Below are positions 28,383 through 43,248 of a stretch of DNA of 64,000 bases, piece after piece. The stretch is from NCBI RefSeq assembly GCF_019880205.1, contig NZ_CP082292.1:1488001-1552000 (forward strand), in the 5' to 3' direction. The stretch comes from Pantoea alfalfae (lineage in GTDB: Bacteria; Pseudomonadota; Gammaproteobacteria; Enterobacterales; Enterobacteriaceae). The notes beneath the pieces were generated by a model that was given only the letters and a program-made list of their open reading frames with translations, had not been told where the DNA came from and searched no databases. Position 1 is the first letter of the stretch; each line of letters starts with the position of its first letter. The position numbers were made by a program, and so were the translations under genes.

Positions 28383-29279
28383 GTGAAATATATAAAAGGA
28401 ATGACCCTTTTTGCCCTCGCGCTCAGTGCGCACGCCAGTTTTGCAGCCGAACCGTCAGTGCCTGCTGAAAGCAGCTTACATGTCAAAGCCGATCCGGCGC
28501 TGAAAAGCCTGATACCCGCGGATATCCTTAAGCGTGGCTATATTGTGGCGGGTACTAACCCGAATACGCCGCCCACCACCTTCTATAAAGAAGACAACAA
28601 AACGCTGGCGGGTCGTGAAATCGACATCATGAATGCGGTCGGTGAGCGTCTGGGCATCACCGTTCAGTGGCGCGACACCGGCGGCTTCGACAATATTATT
28701 CCTGGCCTGAAGACCGCACGTTACGACGTGGCGCTGTCAAACATCAATGCCACGCCGACCCGCCTGAAACAGATCGACTTTGTCGGTTACTACAATGCCA
28801 GCCTGCTGGGCATTATTTCCCGCAAAGACGCTGATATCGCTCCCTTTAAATCCCTCAGCGATGTGTGTGGCAAAGAGGTGGGCGCTGGCTCCGGTACGAC
28901 TCAGGTGACGCGGCTGGAAGAGGCCAGCAAAGCCTGTGAAGCCGCCGGTAAGCAACCGATCAAGGTAGCGATATTCCCGGATCGTCCGGCGGGCGTGCAG
29001 GCTGTAGTCAGCGGTCGCGTTCCCTTGTTCCTCGGCCCTTACGAGGGGCTCCTGTGGCAGACCAAAGTGATCAAACCGCTGACCATGAGCGGTGAAATCA
29101 CCGTGAATGATGCACCGGTCTCGGTCGCGTTCCCGAAAGACTCGCCGCTGGAGCCAGCCGTGCAGGCAGCACTGAATTCGTTAATCAAAGATGGCAGCTA
29201 CCGGAAAATCCTCGATAACTGGGGAATCGGTTTTGGTGCCGTGACCGAAGCCCGACGCAATGAAGAGATCTTTAAATGA
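28383..29279 (+). CDS. amino-acid-type ABC transporter substrate-binding protein (YxeM-like)
   Basis: A 298-residue periplasmic binding protein of the polar-amino-acid family (SBP_bac_3). The GTG start at 28383 is preceded by AGGAG and AAAGG and gives a clean signal peptide (VKYIKGMTLFALALSAHASFA). Domain motifs are 'GYIVAGTNPNTPPTTFYKEDNKTLAGREIDIMNAVGERLGI', 'TARYDVALSNINATPTRLKQIDFVGYY' and 'DGSYRKILDNWGIG'. The stop overlaps the permease start by 4 bases. In the yxe comparison it takes the YxeM role of capturing a modified cysteine; substrate is inference from context. Confidence 0.9.
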   Translation: MKYIKGMTLFALALSAHASFAAEPSVPAESSLHVKADPALKSLIPADILKRGYIVAGTNPNTPPTTFYKEDNKTLAGREIDIMNAVGERLGITVQWRDTGGFDNIIPGLKTARYDVALSNINATPTRLKQIDFVGYYNASLLGIISRKDADIAPFKSLSDVCGKEVGAGSGTTQVTRLEEASKACEAAGKQPIKVAIFPDRPAGVQAVVSGRVPLFLGPYEGLLWQTKVIKPLTMSGEITVNDAPVSVAFPKDSPLEPAVQAALNSLIKDGSYRKILDNWGIGFGAVTEARRNEEIFK

Positions 29280-30199
29280 GAGAAACACCGGACCACACCG
29301 ACGACCTGAAAATCGTCGGTAAACGCTACTACGGACGCTGGCTGAGTGCGCTGGTGGTGCTGTTATGCGTGGTGGCGATGGCGCATTCGATGATTAACAA
29401 TCCGCGCTTTGAATGGCAGGTGATTGCAGAGAACTTCACTGCGCCCTCTATTCTGCAGGGTGTGTTAATGACGCTGCAACTCACGGCCATCTCGGTGGTG
29501 CTGGGATTCGCTTTTGGCACGGTGCTGGCGCTGATGCGCCTCTCTTCTAACCCGGTGCTGGTGGCGGTGAGCTGGGCTTACACCTGGTTTTTCCGTGGTG
29601 TGCCGATGCTGGTGCAGCTGTTTCTCTGGTACAACATCGCCGCGCTCTATCCCCGCATCGCGCTGTCGATCCCGGGATTAGGCGAACTCTGGAGCGCGCA
29701 GTCTAATGCGCTGGTGAGTCCATTTAGTGCGGCGGTGATCGCGCTGGTGATGCATCAGTCTGCCTATGCTGCAGAAATTGTACGCGCTGGTATCCAGAGC
29801 GTGGGCAATGGACAGATTGAAGCGGCCCGCGCCCTGGGATATCGCCCGGCGCAGATTTTCCGTCACACCGTTTTACCGCAGGCGATGCGCGCCATTATGC
29901 CGCCAGCGGGCAATGAGATTATCGGCCAGCTGAAAACCACCGCAGTGGTGTCGGTGATCTCTCTGCAGGATGTGCTGTTTTCGGCGCAGATTATCTATCA
30001 GCGCACCTATGAAGTGATCCCGCTGCTGCTGGTCGCAACCTTATGGTATCTGCTGATGACCTCCGTGCTCTCTGTCGGCCAGTACTATGTCGAGCGCTAC
30101 TTTGGTCGCGGTGTGACGCGGCGAGAAAAGCGCAGCCTGCTGTCATCGTTACCGCGCTTTTCGCTGCCGAAAACGCAAAGGAGCGTGAGCAATGGCTGA
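29276..30199 (+). CDS. amino-acid ABC transporter permease (YxeN-like)
   Basis: A 307-residue inner-membrane permease of the HisM/GlnP family. It has an N-terminal cytoplasmic extension of about 20 residues, then about five transmembrane helices. The family motifs are 'ILQGVLMTLQLTAISVVLGFAFGTVLALMRLS' near 60-90 and the EAA loop 'EIVRAGIQSVGNGQIEAARALGYRPAQIFRHTVLPQAMRAIMPP' near 163-206. It overlaps the binding-protein gene by 4 bases and the ATPase gene by 8. Confidence 0.92.
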   Translation: MRETPDHTDDLKIVGKRYYGRWLSALVVLLCVVAMAHSMINNPRFEWQVIAENFTAPSILQGVLMTLQLTAISVVLGFAFGTVLALMRLSSNPVLVAVSWAYTWFFRGVPMLVQLFLWYNIAALYPRIALSIPGLGELWSAQSNALVSPFSAAVIALVMHQSAYAAEIVRAGIQSVGNGQIEAARALGYRPAQIFRHTVLPQAMRAIMPPAGNEIIGQLKTTAVVSVISLQDVLFSAQIIYQRTYEVIPLLLVATLWYLLMTSVLSVGQYYVERYFGRGVTRREKRSLLSSLPRFSLPKTQRSVSNG

Positions 30200-30953
30200 A
30201 GCAATCGCGCTACGCAAAGTCACCAAGCGCTTCTCCGGCGTCACCATTCTCGACGAGGTTAATCTCGATATTCCTGCCGGATCGGTGACCGTAATTCTGG
30301 GGCCATCGGGTTCCGGTAAATCCACGCTGCTGCGCTGTATTAATCATCTTGAAAAACTGGATGGCGGCACGATCCGCATCGGCGGCCAGATGGTGGGATA
30401 CCGGCAAAAAGGCCAGGCGCTGCACGAACTCAGCAGCAGTGCCATTGCCCGCCAGCGGGCGGAAATTGGCATGGTGTTTCAGCAGTTCAACCTGTTTCCG
30501 CACCGCACCGTGCTGCAGAACATTACGGATGCACCGATGCGGGTAAAAAAGCAGAGCCGTCATCAGGCCACGACCAAAGCGCTGGCGCTGCTGAAGCAGG
30601 TGGGGCTGTCTGGCCGCGAAGATGAGTGGCCGCAGAACCTCTCTGGTGGTCAGCAGCAGCGTGTGGCCATTGCCCGCGCGCTGGCGATGGATCCCGGCGT
30701 CATGCTGTTTGATGAACCGACCTCGGCACTTGACCCGGAGCTGGTAGGGGAAGTGCTGCAGGTGATTAAGCAACTGGCGCACTCCGGTATCACCATGGTG
30801 GTGGTCACGCATGAGATTGGCTTTGCCCGCGAAGTTGCCGACAACATCGTATTTATGGAGAGCGGCAGAATTGTCGCAGCGGGTCCGACGCAGCAGGTCC
30901 TCGACGATCCGGACAACGGACGTGTCAGAAACTTTATTGCAACGGTGCTTTGA
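30192..30953 (+). CDS. amino-acid ABC transporter ATP-binding protein (YxeO-like)
   Basis: A 253-residue ATPase with Walker A 'LGPSGSGKSTLLRC' near residues 37-50, Q-loop 'MVFQQFNLFPHRT', signature 'LSGGQQQRVAIARALA', Walker B 'VMLFDEPTSALDPE' and 'VVTHEIGFAREVADNIVFM'. It completes a three-part polar amino-acid importer. The gene is followed after 33 bases by the molybdoenzyme gene on the same strand. Confidence 0.94.
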   Translation: MAEAIALRKVTKRFSGVTILDEVNLDIPAGSVTVILGPSGSGKSTLLRCINHLEKLDGGTIRIGGQMVGYRQKGQALHELSSSAIARQRAEIGMVFQQFNLFPHRTVLQNITDAPMRVKKQSRHQATTKALALLKQVGLSGREDEWPQNLSGGQQQRVAIARALAMDPGVMLFDEPTSALDPELVGEVLQVIKQLAHSGITMVVVTHEIGFAREVADNIVFMESGRIVAAGPTQQVLDDPDNGRVRNFIATVL

Positions 30954-30986
30954 GCACCGTTTCTTTTTTGGTAATCAGGAATCAGC

Positions 30987-33272
30987 ATGACCCAGAAACC
31001 GGTAATGCACAGCGCCCACTGGGGCGCTTTTCACGTCCAGCACAGGGACGATCAACTGCTGATTGAGCCGTTCCACCGCGATCCCGATCCCAGCCCGCTA
31101 TTGCAAAACTTCCGTCATGCACTCAATCATCCGGCGCGTGTCGCGCAGCCGATGATACGGCGTGGCTGGCTGGAAAACGGGCCAGGCCCGGATCAGCGTC
31201 GTGGTGCTGATGAGTATGTCGCGGTCAGCTGGGAAGAGGCCAGTCAGCGGGTGGCGCAGGAACTCAAGCGGGTTGGTGAAGCATACGGCCCGGAAGGCAT
31301 CTTTGGCGGATCGTACGGCTGGTCAAGCGCAGGCCGTTTTCATCATGCGCAAAGCCAGGTGCACCGATTTCTGAACACCACGCTGGGCGGTTATGTCCGT
31401 TCGGTCAACAGCTACAGTTCCGGCGCGGCATCTGTCCTGCTGCCACACATTGTCGGTGACATGAACGAGATCGCCCGACGCGGCGTGAGCTGGGAGGAGA
31501 TCGCCGCGCACAGCGAGGTGGTGCTGGCGTTTGGCGGCCTGGCGCTGAAAAATGCGCAGGTGGCCAGCGGCGGCCTGAGCGAACACACCGAGCGCGGTTT
31601 TATGCAGCGAGCGGCACAGCGCGGTACCCGGTTTATCTCAGTGAGCCCGCTGAAAAGCGATCTGCCTGAAGAGGCGCAGGGCGAGTGGCTGGCGCTGCGG
31701 CCCGGCACGGATGCGGCGTTTATGCTGGGTCTGCTGGCGGTGCTGATTGCGGAAGCGTTAACCGACGAGGCGTTTCTGGCGCGCTACTGTGTCGGCTGGC
31801 CGCAGATGGTCGCTTACATTCGCGGTGAAGAGGATGGCGTAGTCCGTGACGCGCACTGGGCGGCCGCGATCTGCGGCGTCAGCAGTGACATCATCAGCCA
31901 GTTTGCACGGCAGTTGCACGGTAAGCGCGTACTGGTGACCGTGGCTCATGCTTTGCAGCGTGCCGAGCATGGCGAACAGCCAGTGTGGCTCGGCCTGGTG
32001 CTGGCGGCGGCGCTCGGACAGCCAGGGCTGCCCGGCGGTGGATATACGTATGCACTGGGCGCGCTGGGCCATTATGGCAAGCATCATAATCTGGTCAGCT
32101 TTCCGGCCCTGCCGCAGGGTAAAAATGGCATTGACCGCTTTATTCCGGTGGCGCGTATCGCCGACATGCTGCTCAATCCCGGCACAAAGTTTGACTATAA
32201 TGGCCGCCAGCTGACCTATCCCCATATTCGTCTGGCTTACTGGGCGGGAGGCAATCCGTTTCACCATCATCAGGATCTGGCGCGGCTGCGTCAGGCTTTC
32301 TGCCAGCTGGATACGCTGATCGTGCATGAAAGCGCCTGGACCGCCACGGCGCGTCATGCGGATATTGTCCTGCCTGCCACCATGACGCTGGAACGTGAGG
32401 ATATCGGCGGTTCGCCGACCGATCGCCATTTAATCGCCATGCAGCCGGTGGCTGCGCCTTACGCCGAAGCCCGGGATGATTATACGATTTTTCGTGACCT
32501 GGCCCGGCGGCTGGGCAGGGAAGTGGCATTCAGCGAAGGTCGTGATGCGCGTGGCTGGTTGCAGCATCTTTACGGCCAGCTGCAGGAAAAACTGGCCGCT
32601 CATCAGGTGCAGACACCCGATTTCAGTCAGTTCTGGCAGGAGGGCGTGCTGGAGCTGCCGCAGTTAAAGGATGGTGGGCGGATGATCAATGCGTTTCGCG
32701 CCGACCCCGACGCCGCGCCACTGCCGACGCCAGGCGGAAAAATTGAGATTTTCTCCGCTACTATCGCCAGCTTTGGCTATGAAAATTGTCCCGGCCATCC
32801 GGTATGGCGTGAACCGCAGCAAAAACCCAGCGCTGACTATCCGTTCTGGCTGATTGCCAATCAGCCCGCGACGCGTCTGCACAGCCAGCTCGATTTTGGT
32901 GATTACAGCCAGCGCAGCAAGCGGGACGGACGCGAAGTCTGTAGCCTGAACCGGGACGATGCGGCAGCACAGGCGATCGCGGATGGCGACATCATCGAAC
33001 TCTTTAACGCGCGCGGCCATGTGCTCGCCAGCGCGCGTCTCACGGATACCATCATGCCTGGCGTAGTTCAGCTGCCAACCGGTGCCTGGTACGATCCGGT
33101 CGAGCCCACTGCCGCCCGTCCGTTATGCCGCCACGGTAATCCCAATGTGCTGACCATGGATATCGGCACGTCGTCGCTGACGCAGGGCTGCAGCGGCCAG
33201 ATTACGGTAGTGCAGGTGCGGAAATTTGCCGGTGAGGTTACGCCGGTTCAGGCTTTCGTTCCCCCGCGCTAA
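30987..33272 (+). CDS. BisC-like molybdopterin S-oxide/N-oxide reductase
   Basis: A 761-residue molybdopterin guanine dinucleotide enzyme of the DMSO reductase family, closest in layout to cytoplasmic biotin-sulfoxide reductase BisC and to TorA. 'GGSYGWSSAGRFHHAQSQVHRFL' (about residues 107-129) holds the serine expected to bind molybdenum, and no N-terminal iron-sulfur cysteine motif is present. Later motifs are 'SVNSYSSGAASVLLPHIVG', 'YWAGGNPFHHHQDLARLRQAF' and 'ESAWTATARHADIVLPATMTLEREDIGG'. No Tat signal is visible, so it should be cytoplasmic. It lies in the importer operon, which suggests it reduces an S-oxide of the imported sulfur compound. This gene has no counterpart in the Bacillus yxe operon. 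Confidence 0.88.
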   Translation: MTQKPVMHSAHWGAFHVQHRDDQLLIEPFHRDPDPSPLLQNFRHALNHPARVAQPMIRRGWLENGPGPDQRRGADEYVAVSWEEASQRVAQELKRVGEAYGPEGIFGGSYGWSSAGRFHHAQSQVHRFLNTTLGGYVRSVNSYSSGAASVLLPHIVGDMNEIARRGVSWEEIAAHSEVVLAFGGLALKNAQVASGGLSEHTERGFMQRAAQRGTRFISVSPLKSDLPEEAQGEWLALRPGTDAAFMLGLLAVLIAEALTDEAFLARYCVGWPQMVAYIRGEEDGVVRDAHWAAAICGVSSDIISQFARQLHGKRVLVTVAHALQRAEHGEQPVWLGLVLAAALGQPGLPGGGYTYALGALGHYGKHHNLVSFPALPQGKNGIDRFIPVARIADMLLNPGTKFDYNGRQLTYPHIRLAYWAGGNPFHHHQDLARLRQAFCQLDTLIVHESAWTATARHADIVLPATMTLEREDIGGSPTDRHLIAMQPVAAPYAEARDDYTIFRDLARRLGREVAFSEGRDARGWLQHLYGQLQEKLAAHQVQTPDFSQFWQEGVLELPQLKDGGRMINAFRADPDAAPLPTPGGKIEIFSATIASFGYENCPGHPVWREPQQKPSADYPFWLIANQPATRLHSQLDFGDYSQRSKRDGREVCSLNRDDAAAQAIADGDIIELFNARGHVLASARLTDTIMPGVVQLPTGAWYDPVEPTAARPLCRHGNPNVLTMDIGTSSLTQGCSGQITVVQVRKFAGEVTPVQAFVPPR

Positions 33273-33276
33273 GCCA

Positions 33277-34581
33277 CTATCGGGTCAGCGCCCCGGTCAG
33301 CCTCTGCAACTCTGCCGTGGAATGCAGCGCAGTGGCAGCAAGCAGTTCTGGCGACGCGTCACCCAGCGCCTGACGAAGCTTACTGCTGACATTCACGCCC
33401 TCCGCCAGCGATTGCTGGCGCGTACGGCGCTGATGCAGCGTTGTGCCATCCGCGAGCGTCAGCGTGACGACGTGAAAGCGCAGCGCGGGATTGATCGCAT
33501 CGGGCGGCGCACTCTCATCCGGTGTCCGTCGCACACGGGCGGCCAGCGGCATAACCTGATGATTGAGATCGCCTTCCGCAAAATCCTGCAGGCGCAAATC
33601 GCCATAAATCAGCATGGCGGCAATCACATATTCCAGGCTGAAGCGCGCTTCAATACCGTTAACCGGCACCCGTATCGAGGCGGCGATGTCACCGCCTGGC
33701 GGGAAGCCGACGGTGATATCAACAATCTGGCTCAGCAGCGCATCCAGCGGTTTACCCGCAGCCAGCCACTGCTGGCGCAGGCTGCGGGCCGCTTCTGCCG
33801 CACTGTGAGTGCCGGCGCAGGTCGGGAAGGGTTTGAATTCCAGTCCCGGCGTGCTGATCCGCCACGGGCTGCCCCAGTTTTCCAGCACTTTCTCCGGCTG
33901 AGCCTGGTCCGCGCTGCTGGCGGCAACAAAGGCTTCAATGACCCCTTGCTGGCGGCCATCGATTCCGGCCAGGGTCAGCTGAGCCGCTGTCACGGCCCGT
34001 TCGGCGGCAAAGCCTGCGTGCAGCGGTTTTACCGCCGAACCAAACTGAGCGCGTAAACCGCTGGCCTGGGTCGCCGCAATACCCAGCAGGGTGGCCGTGG
34101 CATCACTCTTCATCCCCAGCAGACGCGCCAGCGCCCCTGCCGCCGCAAGGGTCCCCAGCGTCGCCGTGTTGTGATAGCCCAGAGCGTAATGTTGCTGGCT
34201 GACCGCCAGCCCCAGACGACCGGCCATCTCTACCCCCGTGACGTAAGCATCCAGAAACGGCACCAGGCTTCTGGGCTGAACCCGTTGCCAGGCGAAAAGT
34301 GCAGGCAGGATCACGACGCTGGGATGACCGCGAAAATCGGCATGAAAGTCGTCGTAGTCCAGCGCATGTCCCGCATAGCCCAGCAGCAGCGCCTGTGAAC
34401 GCACGCTGCCGTCGCTGTAAAGGGTGCGCAGAGCCGGTAAACCGCTATCCGGTACGGTGCCCTGCAGCACCGGCCAGCTCACCGCCAGAAAATCCCGGAT
34501 GCCTTCGCGCGCATGCTCACGTGCCGGAGCATCCGGCTGGCTGTACAGGATCGCATCAGCCAGCGCGGCAGTCAGGCTCAT
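33277..34581 (-). CDS. MmgE/PrpD family protein (YxeQ-like)
   Basis: A 434-residue member of the MmgE/PrpD family, which includes 2-methylcitrate dehydratase. Family features are 'DYDDFHADFRGHPSVVILPALFAW' near 73-96, 'GYHNTATLGTLAAAGALARLLGM' near 133-155, 'FGSAVKPLHAGFAAERAVTAAQLTLAGIDG' near 180-209 and 'KPFPTCAGTHSAAEAARSL' near 247-265. It is the third gene of a leftward unit: the upstream stop and this ATG share one base (TAATG). YxeQ occupies the same place in the Bacillus operon; its reaction there was not established as far as I know. Confidence 0.87.
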   Translation of the reverse strand: MSLTAALADAILYSQPDAPAREHAREGIRDFLAVSWPVLQGTVPDSGLPALRTLYSDGSVRSQALLLGYAGHALDYDDFHADFRGHPSVVILPALFAWQRVQPRSLVPFLDAYVTGVEMAGRLGLAVSQQHYALGYHNTATLGTLAAAGALARLLGMKSDATATLLGIAATQASGLRAQFGSAVKPLHAGFAAERAVTAAQLTLAGIDGRQQGVIEAFVAASSADQAQPEKVLENWGSPWRISTPGLEFKPFPTCAGTHSAAEAARSLRQQWLAAGKPLDALLSQIVDITVGFPPGGDIAASIRVPVNGIEARFSLEYVIAAMLIYGDLRLQDFAEGDLNHQVMPLAARVRRTPDESAPPDAINPALRFHVVTLTLADGTTLHQRRTRQQSLAEGVNVSSKLRQALGDASPELLAATALHSTAELQRLTGALTR

Positions 34582-35732
34582 TATGGCTGCTCCGGAGAAA
34601 GAAGTGCCGCCCGTGCCAGGCCGGCCAGATAGTGCGCCGTTGGCAGCAGCACCTCATCATTGATGCGAAAAGCAGGGTGGTGCAGCGCATAGGGTTCACC
34701 GGTGCCCACCATCATAAAGGCACCGGGCAACTGTTGCTGATAGAAGGCAAAATCTTCACCAATCGGACTCGCCTCGACCACGCGTGCTTCCAGTCCGCTG
34801 TTCTCAGCCTGCTGCAAAGCAAAGTCCGCCCAGTGCGCATTATTTACTACCGAGGGTGGCCCGGCGTGCCAGGTAAAGCTCACCTGCGCATCAAAGGCTG
34901 ACGCGATGCCCGCCACAATTGCCCGGAAGCGCTGCTCAAGACGCTGGCGGGTGGATGATGAAAACGAGCGCACCGTGCCCTCCAGCCAGGCGCTGTCCGG
35001 AATGACGTTCCAGGTGCTGCCGCTGTGGATCTGGGTGACAGAGACCACCGCGTTATCGGCGGACGGGGCATTGCGGCTGATCAGCGTCTGCGCCGCCGAG
35101 ACAATCTGTGCCGCGATGACAATCGGATCGTTGCCCTGATCGGGTCTGGCGGCATGGCTGCCGATACCGGTAATCGCAATTTCAAAACGGTCGACGGCGG
35201 CAGTGAGCGGCCCGGCTCTGGAACCGATGACGCCAGCAGGCAGTGAAGGATCGTTGTGAATACCGAAAATCGCCAGCGCGTCAGTTAATGCGCCGCTGGC
35301 CATCACCTCGGGCGCGCCCTGGCCGGTCTCCTCTGCCGCCTGAAACAGAATCCGCACCCGGCCCGGCAGGTTCGCTTCCTGCTGCTTTAACAGGATCGCC
35401 GCGCCCATTGCCGCGGCGCTGTGAAAATCATGACCGCAGGCGTGCATCACGCCCGGACGCTGCGAGCGATAGCTGACGCCAGACTGCTCTTCAATCGGCA
35501 GCGCGTCGATATCGGCCCGCAGTACAATCAGCGGCCCCGCTGACGCCCCAATCTCCGCCACCAGGCCGGTTTTCAGCGGCAGATCGAGAATACGGATCTG
35601 ATGCTGTTCCAGCTGCTCGCGCAGTCGGTGCGTAGTCTCAAACTCCTGATTCGACAGCTCCGGGAACTGATGCAGTTCGTGACGGAAGGCGATCAGCGGT
35701 TCGCCTAATGTCGAGGGGATAGTGATGCTCAT
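34581..35732 (-). CDS. M20-family amidohydrolase / deacylase (YxeP-like)
   Basis: A 383-residue metal-dependent aminoacylase of the M20D (hippurate hydrolase/IAA-amino-acid hydrolase) type. Metal-site motifs are 'MHACGHDFHSAAAMGAAILL' near 98-117 and 'FQAAEETGQGAPEVM' near 130-144; a lid domain follows, and 'IGEDFAFYQQQLPGAFMMVGTG' lies near 333-354. In the yxe pathway YxeP removes the acetyl group from N-acetylcysteine, and the same role fits here. Coupled to the acetyltransferase gene by a 4-base overlap. Confidence 0.9.
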   Translation of the reverse strand: MSITIPSTLGEPLIAFRHELHQFPELSNQEFETTHRLREQLEQHQIRILDLPLKTGLVAEIGASAGPLIVLRADIDALPIEEQSGVSYRSQRPGVMHACGHDFHSAAAMGAAILLKQQEANLPGRVRILFQAAEETGQGAPEVMASGALTDALAIFGIHNDPSLPAGVIGSRAGPLTAAVDRFEIAITGIGSHAARPDQGNDPIVIAAQIVSAAQTLISRNAPSADNAVVSVTQIHSGSTWNVIPDSAWLEGTVRSFSSSTRQRLEQRFRAIVAGIASAFDAQVSFTWHAGPPSVVNNAHWADFALQQAENSGLEARVVEASPIGEDFAFYQQQLPGAFMMVGTGEPYALHHPAFRINDEVLLPTAHYLAGLARAALLSPEQP

Positions 35733-36274
35733 TGTGGGTTTCCTTGTGCTGCTGTCTGGCGGCTCAGCCAGGCATCGTGTGCCACCGGGTCCAGTACTTT
35801 CTTCATATAGAGGGTGATATGACCCTTGCCGAGGTCGCGGGTATGCATTGGCTGGAAGCCGCGCTTCAGGTACATCGCCTGCAGCCAGGGGTGACGGGTG
35901 GCCGTTCCCAGCGAGACCGCAGGAGCACGCAGCTGACCGATCAGAATCGCCTGTTCGACCCTTTCCAGCACCTGACGACCAAACTGCTGGCCGGGATAGT
36001 CAGGGTGCGCGCCGAACCAGCCAATATGCGGCAGACCAAACGGGCCGGGCAGCGGCCCCCAGGGATAGCGGACGGTCACTGACGAGACCATCTTCTCGTC
36101 AGCATAGAGCGCATACACCCCGTGGCTCTGCAGATGGCGCAGAGCCATAGCGCGGTCTGCGGTAGCGGCATCAAACTTAATGCCCAGCGCTTTCACCGGC
36201 GCATAGGCCGCATGCATCAGCGCCAGATAAACATCTGTTTCATCTTCTCTGACCTGACGAAAATCGAGTTGCAT
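35729..36274 (-). CDS. GNAT N-acetyltransferase (YxeL-like)
   Basis: A 181-residue acetyl-CoA-dependent transferase: 'MQLDFRQVREDETDVYLALMHAAY' at the N-terminus, 'HIGWFGAHPDYPGQQFGRQVLERVEQ' near 83-108 (the acetyl-CoA pyrophosphate loop, reading Q-Q-F-G-R), and 'GTATRHPWLQAMYLKRGFQPM' near 123-143. First gene of the leftward GNAT-M20-MmgE/PrpD unit. By comparison with YxeL it would acetylate the amino group of the imported S-substituted cysteine. This substrate is inferred from the cluster. Confidence 0.85.
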   Translation of the reverse strand: MQLDFRQVREDETDVYLALMHAAYAPVKALGIKFDAATADRAMALRHLQSHGVYALYADEKMVSSVTVRYPWGPLPGPFGLPHIGWFGAHPDYPGQQFGRQVLERVEQAILIGQLRAPAVSLGTATRHPWLQAMYLKRGFQPMHTRDLGKGHITLYMKKVLDPVAHDAWLSRQTAAQGNPQ

Positions 36275-36529
36275 ATTCTTTCCCGGAACACTGCCTGATA
36301 AGCAGTTAATTAATTCAGCCAGAGGGGCAGGTTAACAGTAAAAAGCCGGGTCGCTATATGTGAAAAATAACTATCCTCATGCAGATTTGTGAATAAAGAA
36401 TGGCCGGTTTTCAATTGCTTAAATTGCTGGTTGTCGTAGTATTTAAAAAAGAAATAACGCTGCTCTTTCGTTAATAAATAAATGTAATTAAAGCCTTTTT
36501 GGCCTAATTCTTATAATCAGGATGCCGCT
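36275..36529. promoter_or_regulatory. divergent promoter region of the two yxe-like arms
   Basis: This 255-base AT-rich gap separates the leftward acetyltransferase operon from the rightward dehydrogenase-monooxygenase pair, so it should hold both promoters and any shared operator. No regulator gene lies in the cluster. I cannot name a binding site; TAATTAATT- and AAATAAATG-rich stretches lie on either side. Confidence 0.4.
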
Positions 36530-37600
36530 GTGTTAGCGATTACTTCTCCGCGAGCCTATGCACATGAGGCGGGCCTGCGTGCACGCGTCGGTGAGTTTAT
36601 TAAACCCTACGCCAGCCATATCCGGATATTGACCTCGCCGCACGCGTGGCAGGCGGTTAATCCGGAATTAAGCCAGAGTCTTGAGGCATCGGGCATTCAC
36701 TGGCAGCTGGATTATTTAGCGGGTGAATGTACTGAAGAGGCGATTGCCCGCGTAGAACAGCAAACCGAACAGCAGGGCGCAGAGTTACTGCTGGCGATTG
36801 GCGGTGGACGGGTGCTGGATGCCGCCAAAGCCGCCGCCAGCCAGTTACCGGCACTTACGCTGGTTAACTTTGCTACTCAGGCAGCGACCTGTGCCGCCTG
36901 GTCACCGATTGCCATCATCTATAACGAAGCGGGCGGGCATCTGCGCAGCCAGCCTCTGGGCAAAATGCCGGAACTGTTGCTGGTAGACAGTGAGGTCATT
37001 GCCCGGAGCGACGTGCGCTTTCTGAAAGCGGGCATTGTGGATGCGCTGGCAAAATATTACGAATTCCACCCTTACCAGCGGCATAACCCCAACGATCTGG
37101 CGCTGGATTTAAAGGTGATGACCGCGCGGCAGGCGGCAGATGTGTTTCAGCAATATGGTGAGGCCGCGATAGCCGCCTGCCAGCAGCAGCGGGTCACAAC
37201 CGAACTGGTCAAAGTCATTGATGCCAGTATCGTGCTGGCTGGGCTGGCGAACAGCGTGCGCGACGTGCTGCCGACGCCGGGGCTGGCGCATGCCATCCAT
37301 AATCGTCTGACCCACCAGCCGGAACTCCATCACTGGCTGCACGGCGAAAAAGTGGGCTTCAGTCTGCTGGTGCAGTCGCTGATTGAGCATGGCGGGGAGC
37401 CGGATGCAGAACTGCTGGCGCTGCTGCGCTATTACGGCATGCCACTAAAGCTTCCCGCGTTGCCGGGCAATCGTGACACCGCGCTGCGTCACATCGCACA
37501 GCAGATTACATTTCCCAAAGCCTGCGCAGAACGCCTGCCGTTTACCGTCTCTGCCAGCACGCTGGAACAGGCCCTGCTGGCGACCGACACCCTTCTTTAA
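36530..37600 (+). CDS. iron-containing alcohol dehydrogenase-type oxidoreductase (YbdH/HcxA-like)
   Basis: A 356-residue dehydroquinate synthase/glycerol dehydrogenase-fold enzyme: 'LLLAIGGGRVLDAAKAAA' near 87-104 is the NAD-binding GGG loop, 'NFATQAATCAAWSPIAIIYNEAG' near 112-134, and 'HAIHNRLTHQPELHHWLHGEKVGFSLLVQ' near 254-282 carries the metal histidines. It resembles E. coli YbdH (HcxA), reported to reduce 2-oxo acids. GTG start at 36530 with AGGA 7-8 bases before. Beside the YxeK-like gene, it could reduce the oxaloacetate set free there; this is speculation. Confidence 0.85.
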   Translation: MLAITSPRAYAHEAGLRARVGEFIKPYASHIRILTSPHAWQAVNPELSQSLEASGIHWQLDYLAGECTEEAIARVEQQTEQQGAELLLAIGGGRVLDAAKAAASQLPALTLVNFATQAATCAAWSPIAIIYNEAGGHLRSQPLGKMPELLLVDSEVIARSDVRFLKAGIVDALAKYYEFHPYQRHNPNDLALDLKVMTARQAADVFQQYGEAAIAACQQQRVTTELVKVIDASIVLAGLANSVRDVLPTPGLAHAIHNRLTHQPELHHWLHGEKVGFSLLVQSLIEHGGEPDAELLALLRYYGMPLKLPALPGNRDTALRHIAQQITFPKACAERLPFTVSASTLEQALLATDTLL

Positions 37601-37645
37601 GCGCGCTGCGGCTCGCTTTTTCATCTTTCAGACCAGGAATCGTTT

Positions 37646-38947
37646 ATGAACTCTGCAACTTCACCACGTCGCCTGCGGCTCGGCCTGTTTGTTCAACCTG
37701 TGGGTCAGCACGTCAGTGGCTGGCGTCTGACCGAACAACTGGGCGATCCCACCGATATTGACTGGCTGATCGCCCTGGCAAAAAAAGCCGAAGCGGGTAA
37801 GTTCGACCTCTTTTTTGTGGGTGATGCCCTGGCAACCAGCATGTATCGTCTGCCGTCCACCATGGCCCGTCTTGAACCTCTGACGATGCTGGCGGCGCTG
37901 GCAGTCAATACCCGGCGCATTGGCCTTGCCGCGACCGCCTCCACCACCTTCAGCGATCCCTTTACGCTGGCGCGCAGCTTCTCATCGCTGGATCACATCA
38001 GCCGTGGCCGTGCCGCGTGGAACGTCGTGACCTCGTTTTCCACAGACGTTGCGCGTAACTTCAGCCGCAGCGATATGCCCGATCATGCTTCACGCTACGC
38101 CCGTGCGCGTGAGTTCCTCGAGGTGGCCTGTAAACTGTGGGCGGGCTGGGAAGAGGGTGCCGTGCAGCCGGATAAAGCAACCGGAAACTATTTTGTTGAT
38201 GAGAAGATCCAGCCGATTAATCATCAGGGCGAACATTTTCAGGTGCAGGGTCCACTGAATATCACCCGTTCGCCGCAGGGCCGTCCGGTGATTATCGAAG
38301 CGGGTTCATCGGCGGATGGTCAGAAGCTGGCGGCGGAGACGGCGGAAGTGATCTTTACCGCCTCTGCCAGTCTGGAGGAAGCGCAATCCTTCTATCGCGC
38401 GCAGAAGGCGCAGGTGGTGGCTGCCGGACGTAACCCGGATCAGGTGGTGATCATGCCTGGCGTCATGCCGATTATCGGCCGCACGCGCGAAGACGCTAAG
38501 GCGCTGTGGAAAGAGCTGAATACGCTGGTGGATATTGAGAATGGGCTGCGTCAGCTCTCACTGCGGTTCAGCATGGATCTCAGTCAGTATCCGCTGGATG
38601 GCCCGGTGCCGGAGGTGCCGCTGGGCGAAGGGAACCAGAGCCGCGTTAAGCTGATGACCGATATGGCAAAACGCGAAAACCTGACGCTGCGCGAACTGGC
38701 CGCCGTCGCCGCCGGTTCACGCGGGCACCGCGTGATTGTCGGTACGGCTGAAGATATCGCCGATGATTTCCAGCTGTGGCTGGAGCAGGGCGGTGCGGAT
38801 GGCTTCAACATCATGCCCGCCATCATGCCGGAACAGCTCGATCTGTTTGTGGAACTGGTGATTCCGGAACTGCGCCGTCGCGGGCTGTTTCGTGAGGAGT
38901 ATGAGTTTGCCACGCTGCGTGAAAATCTGGGGCTGGACGTGATCTAA
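37646..38947 (+). CDS. NtaA/SnaA/DszA-type flavin monooxygenase (YxeK-like)
   Basis: A 433-residue LLM-class monooxygenase of the nitrilotriacetate/dibenzothiophene-sulfone monooxygenase branch. Family signs are 'LGLFVQPVGQHVSGWR', 'AEAGKFDLFFVGDALATS', 'TRRIGLAATASTTFSDPFTLARSFSSLDHISRGRAAWNVVTSFSTDVARNFS', 'YARAREFLEVACKLWAGWE' and 'GPLNITRSPQGRPVIIEAGSSADGQKLAAETAEVIFTA'. In Bacillus, YxeK oxidatively breaks the C-S bond of N-acetylated S-(2-succino)cysteine. The gene lies 45 bases after the dehydrogenase gene. No flavin reductase is encoded nearby, so reduced FMN must come from elsewhere. Confidence 0.9.
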   Translation: MNSATSPRRLRLGLFVQPVGQHVSGWRLTEQLGDPTDIDWLIALAKKAEAGKFDLFFVGDALATSMYRLPSTMARLEPLTMLAALAVNTRRIGLAATASTTFSDPFTLARSFSSLDHISRGRAAWNVVTSFSTDVARNFSRSDMPDHASRYARAREFLEVACKLWAGWEEGAVQPDKATGNYFVDEKIQPINHQGEHFQVQGPLNITRSPQGRPVIIEAGSSADGQKLAAETAEVIFTASASLEEAQSFYRAQKAQVVAAGRNPDQVVIMPGVMPIIGRTREDAKALWKELNTLVDIENGLRQLSLRFSMDLSQYPLDGPVPEVPLGEGNQSRVKLMTDMAKRENLTLRELAAVAAGSRGHRVIVGTAEDIADDFQLWLEQGGADGFNIMPAIMPEQLDLFVELVIPELRRRGLFREEYEFATLRENLGLDVI

Positions 38948-39571: not shown

Positions 39572-41734
39572 TCAGAACTGATACGAAACGCTGACGTTCA
39601 CATTACGTGGCTCAGCGTATACGTAACTGTTCATATAGCTGTAATACTCGCGGTCGAAGAGGTTATCGACGTTGGCCTGCACCGCGACCTGCTTATTCAC
39701 CTGATAGCGGGCAAACAACGACGCCAGGGGATAACTGCCCTGATAAACCCGTACGCTGTCGCCGCTGGCATTAGTGACATCTTTAAATACCCGGTTCTGC
39801 CAGTTGATGCCGCCGCCGACAGTCAGGTCGGGGATTGCGGCCAGTTGATAACGGGTAAAAAGCTTAAATGAGGTTTGTGGCTGATAGCTGTTAAAGCGGC
39901 CACTCTGGTCACGTGCCACATAGCGGGTTGCGCCAAAGGTAAGTTGCAGATTATCAGTCAGCGCACCATTCAGTTCGAACTCAGCACCTTTACTCACAGC
40001 ACCTTTGGCTGCAACATAGGCCTGCTCACTGCCGCTCAGGTAGACACCATCAAGCGCCTGACCGACGTTATCCTGCTCAATGCGGAAAATCGCCACGCTG
40101 GCCGTCAGCAGTCCGTCGTTCCAGGCCGATTTCAGACCGGTTTCGTAGTTTTTTCCGGTGACAGGCGAGAGATAACTGCCATGAGTATCACGATAGGTCT
40201 GCGGCAGGAAAATGGCGGTGTAACTGCCATAGGCGGACCAGGTGTCATCGATGTCATAGACCAGCCCGGCGTAAGGCGTGGTGTTGTTTTTGGTCATCTC
40301 TCCGCTGCTGCCGCTCGTGCTCCACTGGGTATAGCGTGCGCCAACGATCAGTGACAGCGGATCGGCCAGCGAAAGACGTGCAGCACTGTACACCGATTTC
40401 TGACGAACCGTGTCATCATCGTTGAGATACCAGCCCTGCCACTCAGGCTCCGCGACGTTACCGCTCCAGTGATTATTGAAAATACCCATATCAGCAGTGG
40501 CGATCTCACGAGCCTCTGCATCGCTGAAACCATCCTGACTGTAAGCGGCATTATGCTGCCGACTGTAGTTCGCACCCGCCATTAACAGGTGCTGACGGCC
40601 CAGTAAGTCAAACGGGCCGCTGGCGAAACCATCAATGGAATCCATTTTACGCTTGCCGCGATCCATGCTGCCGTAGCCGGTGGTGCCTTCACCGCTCTCT
40701 TGGTCGGGATTGCCCATCACATAGAGAAGCTTATCGCTGAAGGTGTTTTCGGCGTGCGTGCCGTTGACATGAATATTCCAGCCGTTGTCAAAGTTATGCT
40801 CGATGTCCGCAAAGACTTTGCGCGAGTTAGTGTTGTAACGTGTCCAGTTGGCTGACGAATTCAGGCTGCGATCGTAATGTGTGGTGGCGTTGTTGCTGTA
40901 AAACATCGGCAGGCCACCCCAGGTCGGATTGCCGGTATTGTTATCTTCATAGTCGTAACCCAGTGACAGCGTGGTCTTCTCAGAGAGATCGGCATCCATC
41001 ACACCGTAGATAAACTTTTGGGTTTTCTGATAGCGGTCCAGCCAGCTCTGCTGATCGGTATAGCCGGTTACCACGCGGCCACGCAGGCTGCCGTCGCCGT
41101 TCAGCGGAGAGGAGAGATCCGCCACATACCGCTGTTTATTCCAGCTGCCATAGCTGGCGCTCAGCGTACCGGTGGCGGTTTTGCTGTCGGCATGTTTACG
41201 CACCATGTTGATAGAGGCTGACGGGCTGCCCGCGCCGGTCATCAGCCCGGTTGCCCCACGCACGATCTCAATGCGGTCATAGATGGCAGTGTCAGACGCC
41301 GCATCGCCGTAATTCCAGTTATCGTTGACCGACGTCGGAATGCCATCGAAGGTGAAGTTACTGACCTTAAAGCCGCGTGAATAGTACTCGGAGCGTTCAC
41401 TGTCGATCAGATTGGTGGAGATACCGGTGGCATTGGTCAGCACATCGCTAACGGATTGCAGATCCTGATCCTGCATCCGCTGCTGCGTCACCACGCTAAG
41501 GGATTGCGGCACATCGCGTGGTGTCAGCATTAGTTTAGTGCCCGCGCGGGTGGTCTGGACTGCGTAATTCTGCTTATCACTTTCACTGTTATCGGCGGGG
41601 GCCGCGCTGACTACCATATCCTGCGATGTTTCCGCAGCCGCCAGAGCGGGGTTGAGAAGGGCATGCACCGTCAGTGCCAGTAATGAAACGCTGAAAACGT
41701 TTTTGAAATCTGATTCCCTGCCACTACGAGCCAT
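39572..41734 (-). CDS. fhuE: TonB-dependent siderophore receptor, FhuE-like
   Basis: A 720-residue outer-membrane receptor closely following E. coli FhuE (coprogen, rhodotorulic acid, ferrioxamine uptake) along its whole length: 'RAGTKLMLTPRDVPQSLSVVTQQRMQDQDLQSVSDVLTNATGIS' in the plug, 'YYSRGFKVSNFTFDGIP', 'IEIVRGATGLMTGAGSPSASINMVRKHA', 'YGSWNKQRYVADLSSPL', 'AIFRIEQDNVGQALDG', and a C-terminal 'NVNVSVSYQF' ending in Phe as beta-barrels do. The signal peptide is residues about 1-34. A Fur box lies about 105 bases upstream of the start. Substrate by homology is a hydroxamate siderophore. Confidence 0.9.
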   Translation of the reverse strand: MARSGRESDFKNVFSVSLLALTVHALLNPALAAAETSQDMVVSAAPADNSESDKQNYAVQTTRAGTKLMLTPRDVPQSLSVVTQQRMQDQDLQSVSDVLTNATGISTNLIDSERSEYYSRGFKVSNFTFDGIPTSVNDNWNYGDAASDTAIYDRIEIVRGATGLMTGAGSPSASINMVRKHADSKTATGTLSASYGSWNKQRYVADLSSPLNGDGSLRGRVVTGYTDQQSWLDRYQKTQKFIYGVMDADLSEKTTLSLGYDYEDNNTGNPTWGGLPMFYSNNATTHYDRSLNSSANWTRYNTNSRKVFADIEHNFDNGWNIHVNGTHAENTFSDKLLYVMGNPDQESGEGTTGYGSMDRGKRKMDSIDGFASGPFDLLGRQHLLMAGANYSRQHNAAYSQDGFSDAEAREIATADMGIFNNHWSGNVAEPEWQGWYLNDDDTVRQKSVYSAARLSLADPLSLIVGARYTQWSTSGSSGEMTKNNTTPYAGLVYDIDDTWSAYGSYTAIFLPQTYRDTHGSYLSPVTGKNYETGLKSAWNDGLLTASVAIFRIEQDNVGQALDGVYLSGSEQAYVAAKGAVSKGAEFELNGALTDNLQLTFGATRYVARDQSGRFNSYQPQTSFKLFTRYQLAAIPDLTVGGGINWQNRVFKDVTNASGDSVRVYQGSYPLASLFARYQVNKQVAVQANVDNLFDREYYSYMNSYVYAEPRNVNVSVSYQF

Positions 41735-41837
41735 AAATTTTCCATTAAATGTTGGTATTGCGTTAAGTCATTACGCTTTGATCGTTATATTTCTCAGCCC
41801 ATCACAGAAAGAGAGAAGCTGAATTAGTTGTGAGAAT

Positions 41838-41856
41838 GCCAATGATAATCATTTGC
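41838..41856 (-). promoter_or_regulatory. Fur box upstream of the fhuE-like gene
   Basis: AATGATAATCATT (41841-41853) matches the 13-base centre of the Fur consensus GATAATGATAATCATTATC exactly. It lies between the divergent receptor and lipoprotein genes, closer to the receptor. Confidence 0.85.
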
Positions 41857-42085
41857 TTTATAAATTCCCTTTGAGATTCAATTGAAGATGTAACATTATA
41901 TTAATTTCAAATAAATCAGATAAATAAGCGCGATAAAAGCCTCATACTTGCTGGCGTTTACATTATTCTGGTGCTGAAAAAGGGCGAATTGACCCTAATA
42001 AAAAACGGAAGTTGAAGGTTTATGTCGTGAGAACGCACTGGAGCGCTACAGGAATCTGAGCCGTAGTTTGCTTAGCGACTGTTAA

Positions 42086-42100
42086 TGAGTATGATTCGCA
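42086..42100 (+). promoter_or_regulatory. Fur-like site upstream of the YncE-like gene
   Basis: TGAGTATGATTCGCA matches the 7-1-7 Fur model TGATAAT-N-ATTATCA at 10 of 14 positions and sits about 60 bases before the start codon, overlapping where a promoter is expected. Confidence 0.6.
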
Positions 42101-42159
42101 TTCTTTATTCTGGCCGATCAGAATGGCCCGGCACCCTTTATTCCCTGATGGAGTTCTGC

Positions 42160-43248
42160 ATGAAATCGTTAAGCCCGCGCAAAGCCGCTGTTGCCATGGC
42201 TGCCGCCGCTGCCATTAGCCTGACAGCGTGTCAGGCACCTGCTAAAAAAGTTGATGCGCCTGCTGCAGAAGCCTCTAAACCAGTCGACAGCGCGGTAACT
42301 CAGCGCGCCCTGGGGGATGGTCTGTATGAAATGGCTTATTCTCCTGCAGCAAAAGCGTTATTTGTTGCCAGTGCGCAGGCGTTTAAGGATGTGAACGGCG
42401 GCATGATCTACCGTCTTGATCCCGCCACACTAACTACTCAGGGTGAAACACATACCGACATGAAAAATTTCGGCACCGCTATCGATGAAGCGGGTGAGGT
42501 CTTCTACACCACCAACTCGCTGGATGGCGCAATCTCCAGAGTGGATGCGAAGAGTGGCAAAGTGCTGCAGCGTCTGGTCTTCCCGGGCAAAATCAGTAAA
42601 GAGGGCTATCCGGCAGGTGCACGTGAAGTGTTATGGCATGGCAACGAACTCTATGTGGGCCGCGTGGCTGAACCAGGCTATATCTCGGTAGTCGACACCA
42701 AAACCTTTACGCTTAAAACCGAAATTAAGAATGCCGGTAAATGGGTGACGGGTATCATCTACTCACCGCTGACTGATCGCATCTATGCTGCTAATGGCTC
42801 GGGTGAAATTCTGGTGATTAATCCGCGCAGCCATAAAATCGAGAAGCGCTGGACGCCAGGCGATGGCAAAGCATATCTGTTCCTGAACATGGCAGAAGAT
42901 CCTGAAACCGGTCGCCTGTTCGTGACCGACGATTCCAAAGGCAAAGCCACGCTGATCTTTGATGAGCGCACCGGCAAGGTAATCAAACGCATTGAAGGTG
43001 ATGCGATGGGCATTAAGTTCAACGCTAAGCGCAATGAGCTTTACATCAGCCAGCGCGAATCGAAGAGAGTACTGCAACTGGATGCCACCACCTATGCGGT
43101 GAAAAACAGCTGGTCGTTCGAAAAAAATCCCAACAGCCTGCTGATAGGTCCGGATAACAATACCCTGTTTGTCACCCTTAAAGCGGAATTTAACAAAGAT
43201 TCCTCCACTAAAGGCACTGACGAGATTGCTCGTATCGTGTTGCCATAA
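42160..43248 (+). CDS. YncE-like beta-propeller lipoprotein
   Basis: A 362-residue protein resembling E. coli YncE, a Fur-regulated seven-bladed propeller. The start at 42160 is preceded by ATGGAG. The N-terminus 'MKSLSPRKAAVAMAAAAAISLTACQAP' is a lipoprotein signal with lipobox LTAC, so the mature protein should be lipid-anchored at Cys 24. Residue 2 of the mature form is Gln, which favours sorting to the outer membrane. Repeated blade motifs include 'AAKALFVASAQ', 'DGAISRVDAKSGKVLQRLVFPGK', 'DRIYAANGSGEILVINPRSHKIEKRW' and 'KRNELYISQRESKRVLQLDATTY'. E. coli YncE has a cleavable signal instead, to my knowledge. Role unknown; linked to iron by its promoter and neighbour. Confidence 0.82.
   Translation: MKSLSPRKAAVAMAAAAAISLTACQAPAKKVDAPAAEASKPVDSAVTQRALGDGLYEMAYSPAAKALFVASAQAFKDVNGGMIYRLDPATLTTQGETHTDMKNFGTAIDEAGEVFYTTNSLDGAISRVDAKSGKVLQRLVFPGKISKEGYPAGAREVLWHGNELYVGRVAEPGYISVVDTKTFTLKTEIKNAGKWVTGIIYSPLTDRIYAANGSGEILVINPRSHKIEKRWTPGDGKAYLFLNMAEDPETGRLFVTDDSKGKATLIFDERTGKVIKRIEGDAMGIKFNAKRNELYISQRESKRVLQLDATTYAVKNSWSFEKNPNSLLIGPDNNTLFVTLKAEFNKDSSTKGTDEIARIVLP

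Follow-up and report, generated by a model that had tools for sequence, protein, structure and literature searches.

A nine-gene cluster of Pantoea alfalfae related to the Bacillus subtilis yxe operon and its predicted role in S-(2-succino)cysteine salvage

What is the function of a gene cluster that contains every protein family of the Bacillus subtilis yxe operon and, in addition, an S-oxide reductase and an iron-type dehydrogenase? This question is raised by nine open reading frames at positions 28383-38947 of a 64,000-nucleotide stretch of the Pantoea alfalfae genome (contig NZ_CP082292.1, positions 1,488,001 to 1,552,000), here referred to as the window. The yxe (scm) operon of B. subtilis, yxeKLMNOPQ, is dedicated to the breakdown of S-(2-succino)cysteine (2SC) (PMC9706529, PMC12757645). 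On balance, we favor the interpretation that the Pantoea cluster imports 2SC or a close S-dicarboxyalkyl-cysteine and salvages it as a sulfur source, and that it can also handle substrate that is oxidized or wrong-handed. The identity of the parts rests on sequence and synteny, and the substrate is predicted from them.

Gene content and layout agree with an earlier note on this DNA that had been made from the sequence alone. All nine frames are open and without internal stops, Pfam and NCBIfam agree with the family assignments, and the seven yxe families are present, each matched family by family. The genes form three tight blocks in which neighbors overlap or sit at most 45 bases apart, namely, a rightward block (solute-binding protein, permease, ATPase, and BisC-like reductase), a leftward block (GNAT, M20, and MmgE), and a second rightward block (dehydrogenase and monooxygenase), as had been noted before. 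The features are as follows.

28383..29279, plus strand: solute-binding protein (SBP_bac_3) of an amino-acid ABC importer; PF00497, 98.6 bits; GTG start; signal peptide visible
29276..30199, plus strand: permease of the amino-acid ABC importer, 307 amino acids; PF00528; TIGR03004, 152.9 bits, under cut-off
30192..30953, plus strand: ATPase of the amino-acid ABC importer; best named match the cystine importer ATPase TcyN (NF008428), 313.7 bits, under the cut-off of 406
30941..30961, plus strand: hairpin with a T-run across the ATPase stop codon, just 5' of the BisC-like gene; may act as an attenuator or partial terminator
30987..33272, plus strand: cytosolic molybdopterin S/N-oxide reductase of the BisC/TorZ/DorA family; TIGR00509, 897 bits; no signal peptide
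33277..34581, minus strand: MmgE/PrpD-family protein of the YxeQ type, predicted succino-carbon epimerase; best solved match 7bra
34581..35732, minus strand: M20 deacylase of the YxeP (ScmP) type, predicted N-acetylcysteine deacetylase; best solved match B. subtilis YxeP (1ysj)
35729..36274, minus strand: GNAT acetyltransferase of the YxeL type, predicted 2SC N-acetyltransferase; matches the B. velezensis yxe-operon GNAT; Pfam GNAT match weak
36530..37600, plus strand: iron-containing-type dehydrogenase, predicted 2-oxo/2-hydroxy acid dehydrogenase; metal ligands and motif ATCAAWSP
37646..38947, plus strand: flavin mononucleotide (FMN)-dependent NtaA/DmoA-type monooxygenase, predicted N-acetyl-2SC C-S monooxygenase; TIGR03860, 540.8 bits, above cut-off

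Correspondence with the yxe operon

A genome scan that used the solved protein 7bra and Pantoea MmgE proteins as leads identified a Bacillus velezensis locus with the gene order monooxygenase, GNAT, solute-binding protein, permease, ATPase, M20, and MmgE, which is the order of yxeKLMNOPQ. The window proteins are 50% (monooxygenase), 42-44% (GNAT), 26% (solute-binding protein), 31% (permease), 49% (ATPase), 49% (M20), and 36% (MmgE) identical to their counterparts in this locus. Among solved structures, the M20 protein matches B. subtilis YxeP best (1ysj; 376 bits), which places it with the YxeP type. As the M20 candidates of B. subtilis are themselves 35-50% identical to one another (PMC12757645), a YxeP-type deacetylase specificity is a prediction.

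Identity percentages alone do not decide the affiliation of the monooxygenase, since YtnJ is 44% identical to the window enzyme and also 49% identical to the yxe enzyme of B. velezensis. In a maximum-likelihood tree, YtnJ and its Pantoea relatives form one clade (support, 96/92), and the window enzyme lies outside it in a separate, long-branched clade (12 rows; 100/100); membership in the YtnJ/CmoJ group was therefore ruled out. The window enzyme shares with YxeK, against YtnJ, the letters SRGH near positions 358-361 and NIMP near positions 388-391, although these may be ancestral. For cleavage of 2SNAC, a yxe locus is expected to encode either a YxeK that is >50% identical to that of B. subtilis or the lyase 2SL, and the 50% identity to the B. 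velezensis enzyme lies at this threshold. A separate YtnJ-like gene (57% identical to YtnJ) is present on contig C4 of the same genome, beside an M20 gene and importer genes. In one other genome (G006:C3, L138), two tandem NtaA-type monooxygenases, 48% and 45% identical to that of the window, are located near the lyase-containing cluster of that genome.

The best solved match of the MmgE/PrpD protein is 7bra (222 bits), followed by iminodisuccinate epimerase (138 bits). At 69% identity to the MmgE protein of the B. velezensis yxe operon, 7bra, a solved B. subtilis protein, is very probably YxeQ, a name that is not used in the structure paper. All seven catalytic residues of iminodisuccinate epimerase (H85, D88, H99, Y145, H150, K198, and K266) are kept in both the window protein and 7bra, pointing to a capability for epimerization and not to an activity as such. 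Chemical addition of fumarate to a thiol yields two configurations at the succino carbon, and enzymes usually take only one. For this reason, epimerization of the succino carbon is the most economical role, and we propose it for YxeQ-type proteins, whose function has been listed as unknown (PMC9706529); the earlier note had named the family correctly and offered no role. The substrates of characterized MmgE/PrpD members have a C4 1,4-dicarboxylate backbone and are deprotonated at C2, and the B. subtilis "IRG1" falls outside the cis-aconitate decarboxylase clusters (PMC12290011). A cis-aconitate decarboxylase assignment for the window protein was rejected, as its score lies below those of 7bra and iminodisuccinate epimerase and 7bra has been set apart from the decarboxylases (PMC12290011).

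Loci with a monooxygenase and loci with a lyase

Previous work showed that 2SL sits in yxe loci in place of yxeK, complements a yxeK mutant, and gives fumarate from N-acetyl-2SC (PMC9706529). In Klebsiella michiganensis, Winslowiella, and a further genome (G006), the dehydrogenase and GNAT genes of a cluster syntenic with that of the window flank the gene of a protein that combines Lyase_1 and ADSL_C domains, and relatives of this protein in yxe-type loci of Paenibacillus and Lysinibacillus are 56-57% identical. We refer to this protein as 2SL-type on the basis of family and context and not of a comparison with the Dickeya or Enterococcus 2SL sequences. Its presence in syntenic clusters of relatives supports a 2SC-type substrate. 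A search of the P. alfalfae genome for a 2SL-type lyase found none.

Among 51 Enterobacterales loci, 35 contain a window-type monooxygenase, 15 contain a 2SL-type lyase and no monooxygenase, and 1 contains neither. These counts are descriptive, as the loci are interrelated and some stretches are cut by region limits, and the share of the dehydrogenase is inflated because many loci were picked for holding the dehydrogenase or the monooxygenase. The 35 monooxygenase loci encode the dehydrogenase in 33 cases, MmgE in 34, the BisC-like reductase in 24, an aspartate transaminase in 21, and the lyase in 6; the corresponding numbers for the 15 lyase-only loci are 10 for the dehydrogenase, 2 for MmgE, and 0 for both the reductase and the transaminase. 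Fisher tests between the two types of locus gave 0.02 in the case of the dehydrogenase and values from 4e-5 to 4e-9 for the other genes. Phylum- and class-wide samples gave too few matches for statistics beyond the bacterial family. The earlier note had made its proposal depend on the reductase and dehydrogenase genes accompanying yxe-like genes in other genomes, and this they do, in 24 and 33 of the 35 monooxygenase loci, respectively. About half of the Pantoea genomes sampled retain the gene set, as do other genera of the Enterobacterales, indicating that the clustering is not due to chance, and plasmid records bearing the same cluster are mostly from Pantoea.

In Pantoea agglomerans-type genomes, the cluster is found without the GNAT and M20 genes. 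Loss of the pathway is unsupported, as homologues of both genes are present in a second, 2SL-type locus; in two of three genomes the GNAT match in that locus crosses a stop codon, yet an open reading frame of 167 amino acids is found there.

Several copies of the cluster differ in detail. Split or stop-interrupted monooxygenase, BisC-like, MmgE, GNAT, or ATPase genes, reflecting either decay or assembly errors, occur in some Pantoea genomes (G001 [L136], G003 [L137], L130, L125, and G034 [L151]). A gene for a flavin adenine dinucleotide-dependent oxidoreductase of the 1242-amino-acid type is inserted between the BisC-like and MmgE genes in several Pantoea loci (L033, L035, L123, L124, L127, and L128), and in other Pantoea copies the MmgE gene is accompanied by that of a WYL-domain (YafY-like) regulator. 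Downstream of the window cluster, positions 39572-43248 hold a TonB-dependent receptor gene on the minus strand and a gene for a YncE-like beta-propeller protein. This receptor is only 22% identical to the siderophore receptor that adjoins the importer genes in other Pantoea copies and hence is not a close relative of it.

The S-oxide reductase and the dehydrogenase

The BisC-like reductase matches TIGR00509 over model positions 2-767 of 772, and its 897 bits lie under the subfamily cut-off of 1017.55. Its closest solved structure is Rhodobacter dimethyl sulfoxide reductase, and it keeps the SYGW tyrosine and the molybdenum-side YSxxA serine motif. It is 37.5% identical to E. coli BisC and 46.6% identical to a paralogue on contig C5 of its own genome, which is encoded beside MetNIQ-type importers. 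With the reductase gene in an importer unit both in the window and on C5, import of a thioether amino acid and reduction of its S-oxide would be the simplest common reading for both reductases. The suggestion in the earlier note that a BisC-like enzyme could recover sulfoxidized substrate fits the cytosolic form of the protein, the location of its gene with those of the importer, and its absence from lyase-only loci, the substrate itself being a prediction. The hairpin ahead of the reductase gene recurs in most Pantoea copies of the cluster, so that expression of the reductase may fall below that of the importer. A promoter scan gave no excess over shuffled sequence.

The C5 paralogue is part of a second organosulfur cluster (from G000:C5:97346-104131 onward; L158 and L159) that comprises two MetNIQ-type importers, the BisC paralogue (47%), a 2-oxoglutarate/Fe(II) oxygenase-like protein, a paralogue of the dehydrogenase (63%), and a pyridoxal phosphate-dependent transaminase. 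Similar modules are present in G010, G020, and other genera.

The dehydrogenase had been labeled YbdH-like. Its identity to E. coli HcxA (YbdH) is 28%, no higher than that to GldA (29%), but the substrate-side motif ATCAAW(S/T)P, common with HcxA and missing in GldA, is present, as are the metal ligands D, H, and H. Membership in either group was rejected: HcxA on the basis of 157 bits against a cut-off of 429 (PRK10586), GldA on the basis of 224 bits against 336 (PRK09423) and the replacement of its motif TDAPCS by TCAAWS, and both on the basis of a tree in which the dehydrogenase family forms one branch apart from them. The family is present in 49 of the 372 genomes of the bacterial family searched. 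Its genes are found in monooxygenase loci, at the head of or adjoining 2SL-GNAT-solute-binding protein-permease-ATPase-M20 operons without a monooxygenase (nine loci in four genera), with MetNIQ-type importers together with a BisC paralogue and a transaminase, with an SsuA-type importer and an HcxB-type dehydrogenase (PRK10098, above cut-off), and in a few other contexts. Members from methionine-type clusters nest among those from monooxygenase loci, which suggests exchange between cluster types, and the distribution as a whole supports a 2-oxo/2-hydroxy acid enzyme tied to organosulfur use in general. A third lineage of iron-type dehydrogenases recurs in a set with an SsuA-type ABC importer and an HcxB-type (PRK10098) Ldh_2 dehydrogenase (L197, L200-L211, and L216); this set is possibly a sulfolactate- or hydroxyacid-type cluster.

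These contexts bear on the earlier proposal that the oxo acid set free by the monooxygenase, namely, oxaloacetate, is reduced by the dehydrogenase. Its occurrence in 33 of 35 monooxygenase loci, mostly adjacent and codirectional, and the motif common with HcxA, an enzyme that acts on 2-oxo acids, are in line with such a role. However, the product of 2SL is fumarate and not an oxo acid, and the family nevertheless heads the nine 2SL operons and is found in the MetNIQ-plus-BisC and SsuA-plus-HcxB-like clusters, which weakens the proposal to the point that we consider it improbable. Moreover, the gene limited to oxygenase loci is that of the aspartate transaminase (21/35 versus 0/15), which tracks the oxygenase and its oxo acid better than the dehydrogenase does and could convert oxaloacetate to aspartate. 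The best model for this transaminase is PRK06107 (533 bits, under the cut-off of 617). It is not encoded beside the window cluster, and a search of the rest of the genome at E 1e-50, run without a positive control, found none.

Predicted pathway, alternatives, and known systems

We suggest that the ABC importer would bring in the amino acid, that the cytosolic BisC-like enzyme would reduce its S-oxide to the thioether, and that the YxeQ-type protein would epimerize the succino carbon, making both diastereomers from fumarate addition usable. The GNAT would then N-acetylate 2SC, the monooxygenase, using reduced FMN supplied by a reductase whose gene lies elsewhere, would cut the C-S bond to give oxaloacetate and N-acetylcysteine, and the M20 enzyme would deacetylate the latter to cysteine. 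Acetylation, C-S cleavage, and deacetylation have been demonstrated in B. subtilis (PMC9706529, PMC12757645). The dehydrogenase may reduce or oxidize a 2-oxo or 2-hydroxy acid, not necessarily oxaloacetate, linked to the use of sulfur amino acids.

Salvage of 2SC, as the earlier note had proposed, is supported by the seven families, an M20 protein nearest to YxeP, and the 2SL-type lyase of syntenic relatives, as well as by the intact epimerase residues in a family that acts on C4 1,4-dicarboxylates, a monooxygenase outside the S-alkylcysteine clade of YtnJ/CmoJ, the separate YtnJ-like gene on C4, and the GNAT and M20 homologues in the second P. agglomerans-type locus. Other observations weigh against it. 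The monooxygenase is best called YxeK-like, as its one-to-one orthology with YxeK is uncertain: the tree gives no firm branching order among its clade, the two Bacillota YxeK sequences, and a group from beta- and alphaproteobacteria. A general need for an epimerase does not explain why MmgE is nearly absent from the lyase-only Enterobacterales loci (2/15). Furthermore, Burkholderia, Paraburkholderia, Comamonas, Inquilinus, and P. coffeiphila have the monooxygenase, MmgE, and importer with no GNAT or M20 gene detected nearby, and such a core may serve another dicarboxylate or other substrates.

The cluster might instead salvage a different S-substituted cysteine or its sulfoxide, such as the S-(2-carboxyalkyl)- or S-alkyl-cysteine sulfoxides of plants. 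Reduction of the sulfoxide would then fall to the BisC-like enzyme, release of an aldehyde or an oxo acid to the monooxygenase, and reduction of this product to the dehydrogenase. The long branch of the monooxygenase clade is compatible with this, a BisC-type reductase and a dehydrogenase suit sulfoxide entry and a carbonyl product, and Pantoea species are often plant associated. Nevertheless, an MmgE/PrpD protein with intact dicarboxylate chemistry (PMC12290011) and the lyase of syntenic loci indicate a succino group, and S-alkylcysteines would be suited by the YtnJ-like cluster elsewhere in the genome, so that we regard a substrate of this kind as unlikely, if the most credible of the alternatives. 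Slightly less credence is given to the idea that the reductase and the dehydrogenase are passengers from a methionine-sulfoxide-type module (MetNIQ, BisC paralogue, dehydrogenase, and transaminase) that act on methionine sulfoxide independently of 2SC. Such a module does exist on C5 and in other genomes, its dehydrogenases nest inside those of monooxygenase loci, and the BisC paralogues (47% identical) have pocket-region letters in common; yet monooxygenase loci keep both genes across genera and despite rearrangements, with the reductase remaining part of the importer unit and missing from the 15 lyase-only loci. Very improbable, finally, is a cluster for aminopolycarboxylates such as iminodisuccinate, with MmgE as the epimerase and an NtaA/EDTA-type monooxygenase cutting a C-N bond: the MmgE/PrpD protein is indeed related to iminodisuccinate epimerase and the monooxygenase belongs to the NtaA/EmoA family, but the GNAT, the YxeP-type deacylase, and the S-oxide reductase would have no place in it.

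The type of pathway, in which cysteine is recovered from fumarate-damaged cysteine, is known, whereas the extended gene set is apparently undescribed. In line with the earlier note, no description of it was found in our literature searches, nor was a report of 2SC use with this set in Enterobacterales, figures and most subscription papers being outside their coverage. In a joint and more speculative reading, which we regard as doubtful in its entirety, the BisC-like protein would be a dedicated 2SC-sulfoxide reductase, the YxeQ type the so far missing epimerase of 2SC or N-acetyl-2SC, and the dehydrogenase a member of a new family of sulfur-amino-acid oxo-acid dehydrogenases common to 2SC, methionine, and sulfonate clusters; if true, this would be an oxidation-tolerant, stereo-complete form of 2SC salvage. 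The conserved epimerase residues and the company of 2SC enzymes suggest for YxeQ a function that can be assayed directly, the comparison of loci predicts the companions of the oxygenase route (MmgE/PrpD, BisC-like reductase, and aspartate transaminase) as opposed to the lyase route in Enterobacterales, and the recurrence of the two extra genes in related bacteria makes the cluster a testable variant of the 2SC pathway.

Compared with the yxe operon, with which it has all seven families in common (GNAT, monooxygenase, a deacetylase nearest to YxeP, importer, and MmgE/PrpD), the window cluster is arranged in three units on two strands and carries two added enzymes. Measured against B. velezensis, its importer has diverged (solute-binding protein, 26%; permease, 31% and longer) and its monooxygenase is just 50% identical. 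In the 2SL-type yxe loci of Dickeya and Enterococcus (PMC9706529), the GNAT, M20, and importer play the same parts; relatives carry 2SL-like genes within their syntenic clusters, and many 2SL-type loci are headed by a homologue of the window dehydrogenase, but the window cluster is predicted to cleave by a monooxygenase, and the S-oxide reductase was not found in lyase-only loci. The ytn/cmo and yha clusters for S-alkylcysteine salvage in B. subtilis (PMC10863075, PMC12757645) follow the same acetylate-cleave-deacetylate logic with homologous families. In contrast to these clusters, the window has a monooxygenase outside the YtnJ clade and an MmgE/PrpD protein, and whereas CmoJ uses a sulfoxide made by CmoO, the window encodes a predicted sulfoxide reductase.

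Among the individual enzymes, E. coli BisC is a member of the cytosolic S/N-oxide reductase family to which the window enzyme is assigned, and the molybdenum-site motifs agree; the window enzyme, 37.5% identical to it, is encoded in an amino-acid importer unit and has a nearer paralogue found with MetNIQ-type importers. E. coli HcxA, whose gene adjoins that of the methionine transaminase YbdL, has the fold family, metal ligands, and ATCAAW(S/T)P motif of the window dehydrogenase, and transaminase neighbors likewise occur in several relatives; the two proteins are 28% identical and lie on separate branches. Iminodisuccinate epimerase (2hp0) and methylsuccinate isomerase (PMC12290011) are members of the same MmgE/PrpD family as the window protein, which keeps all the catalytic residues of the former but is nearer to YxeQ.

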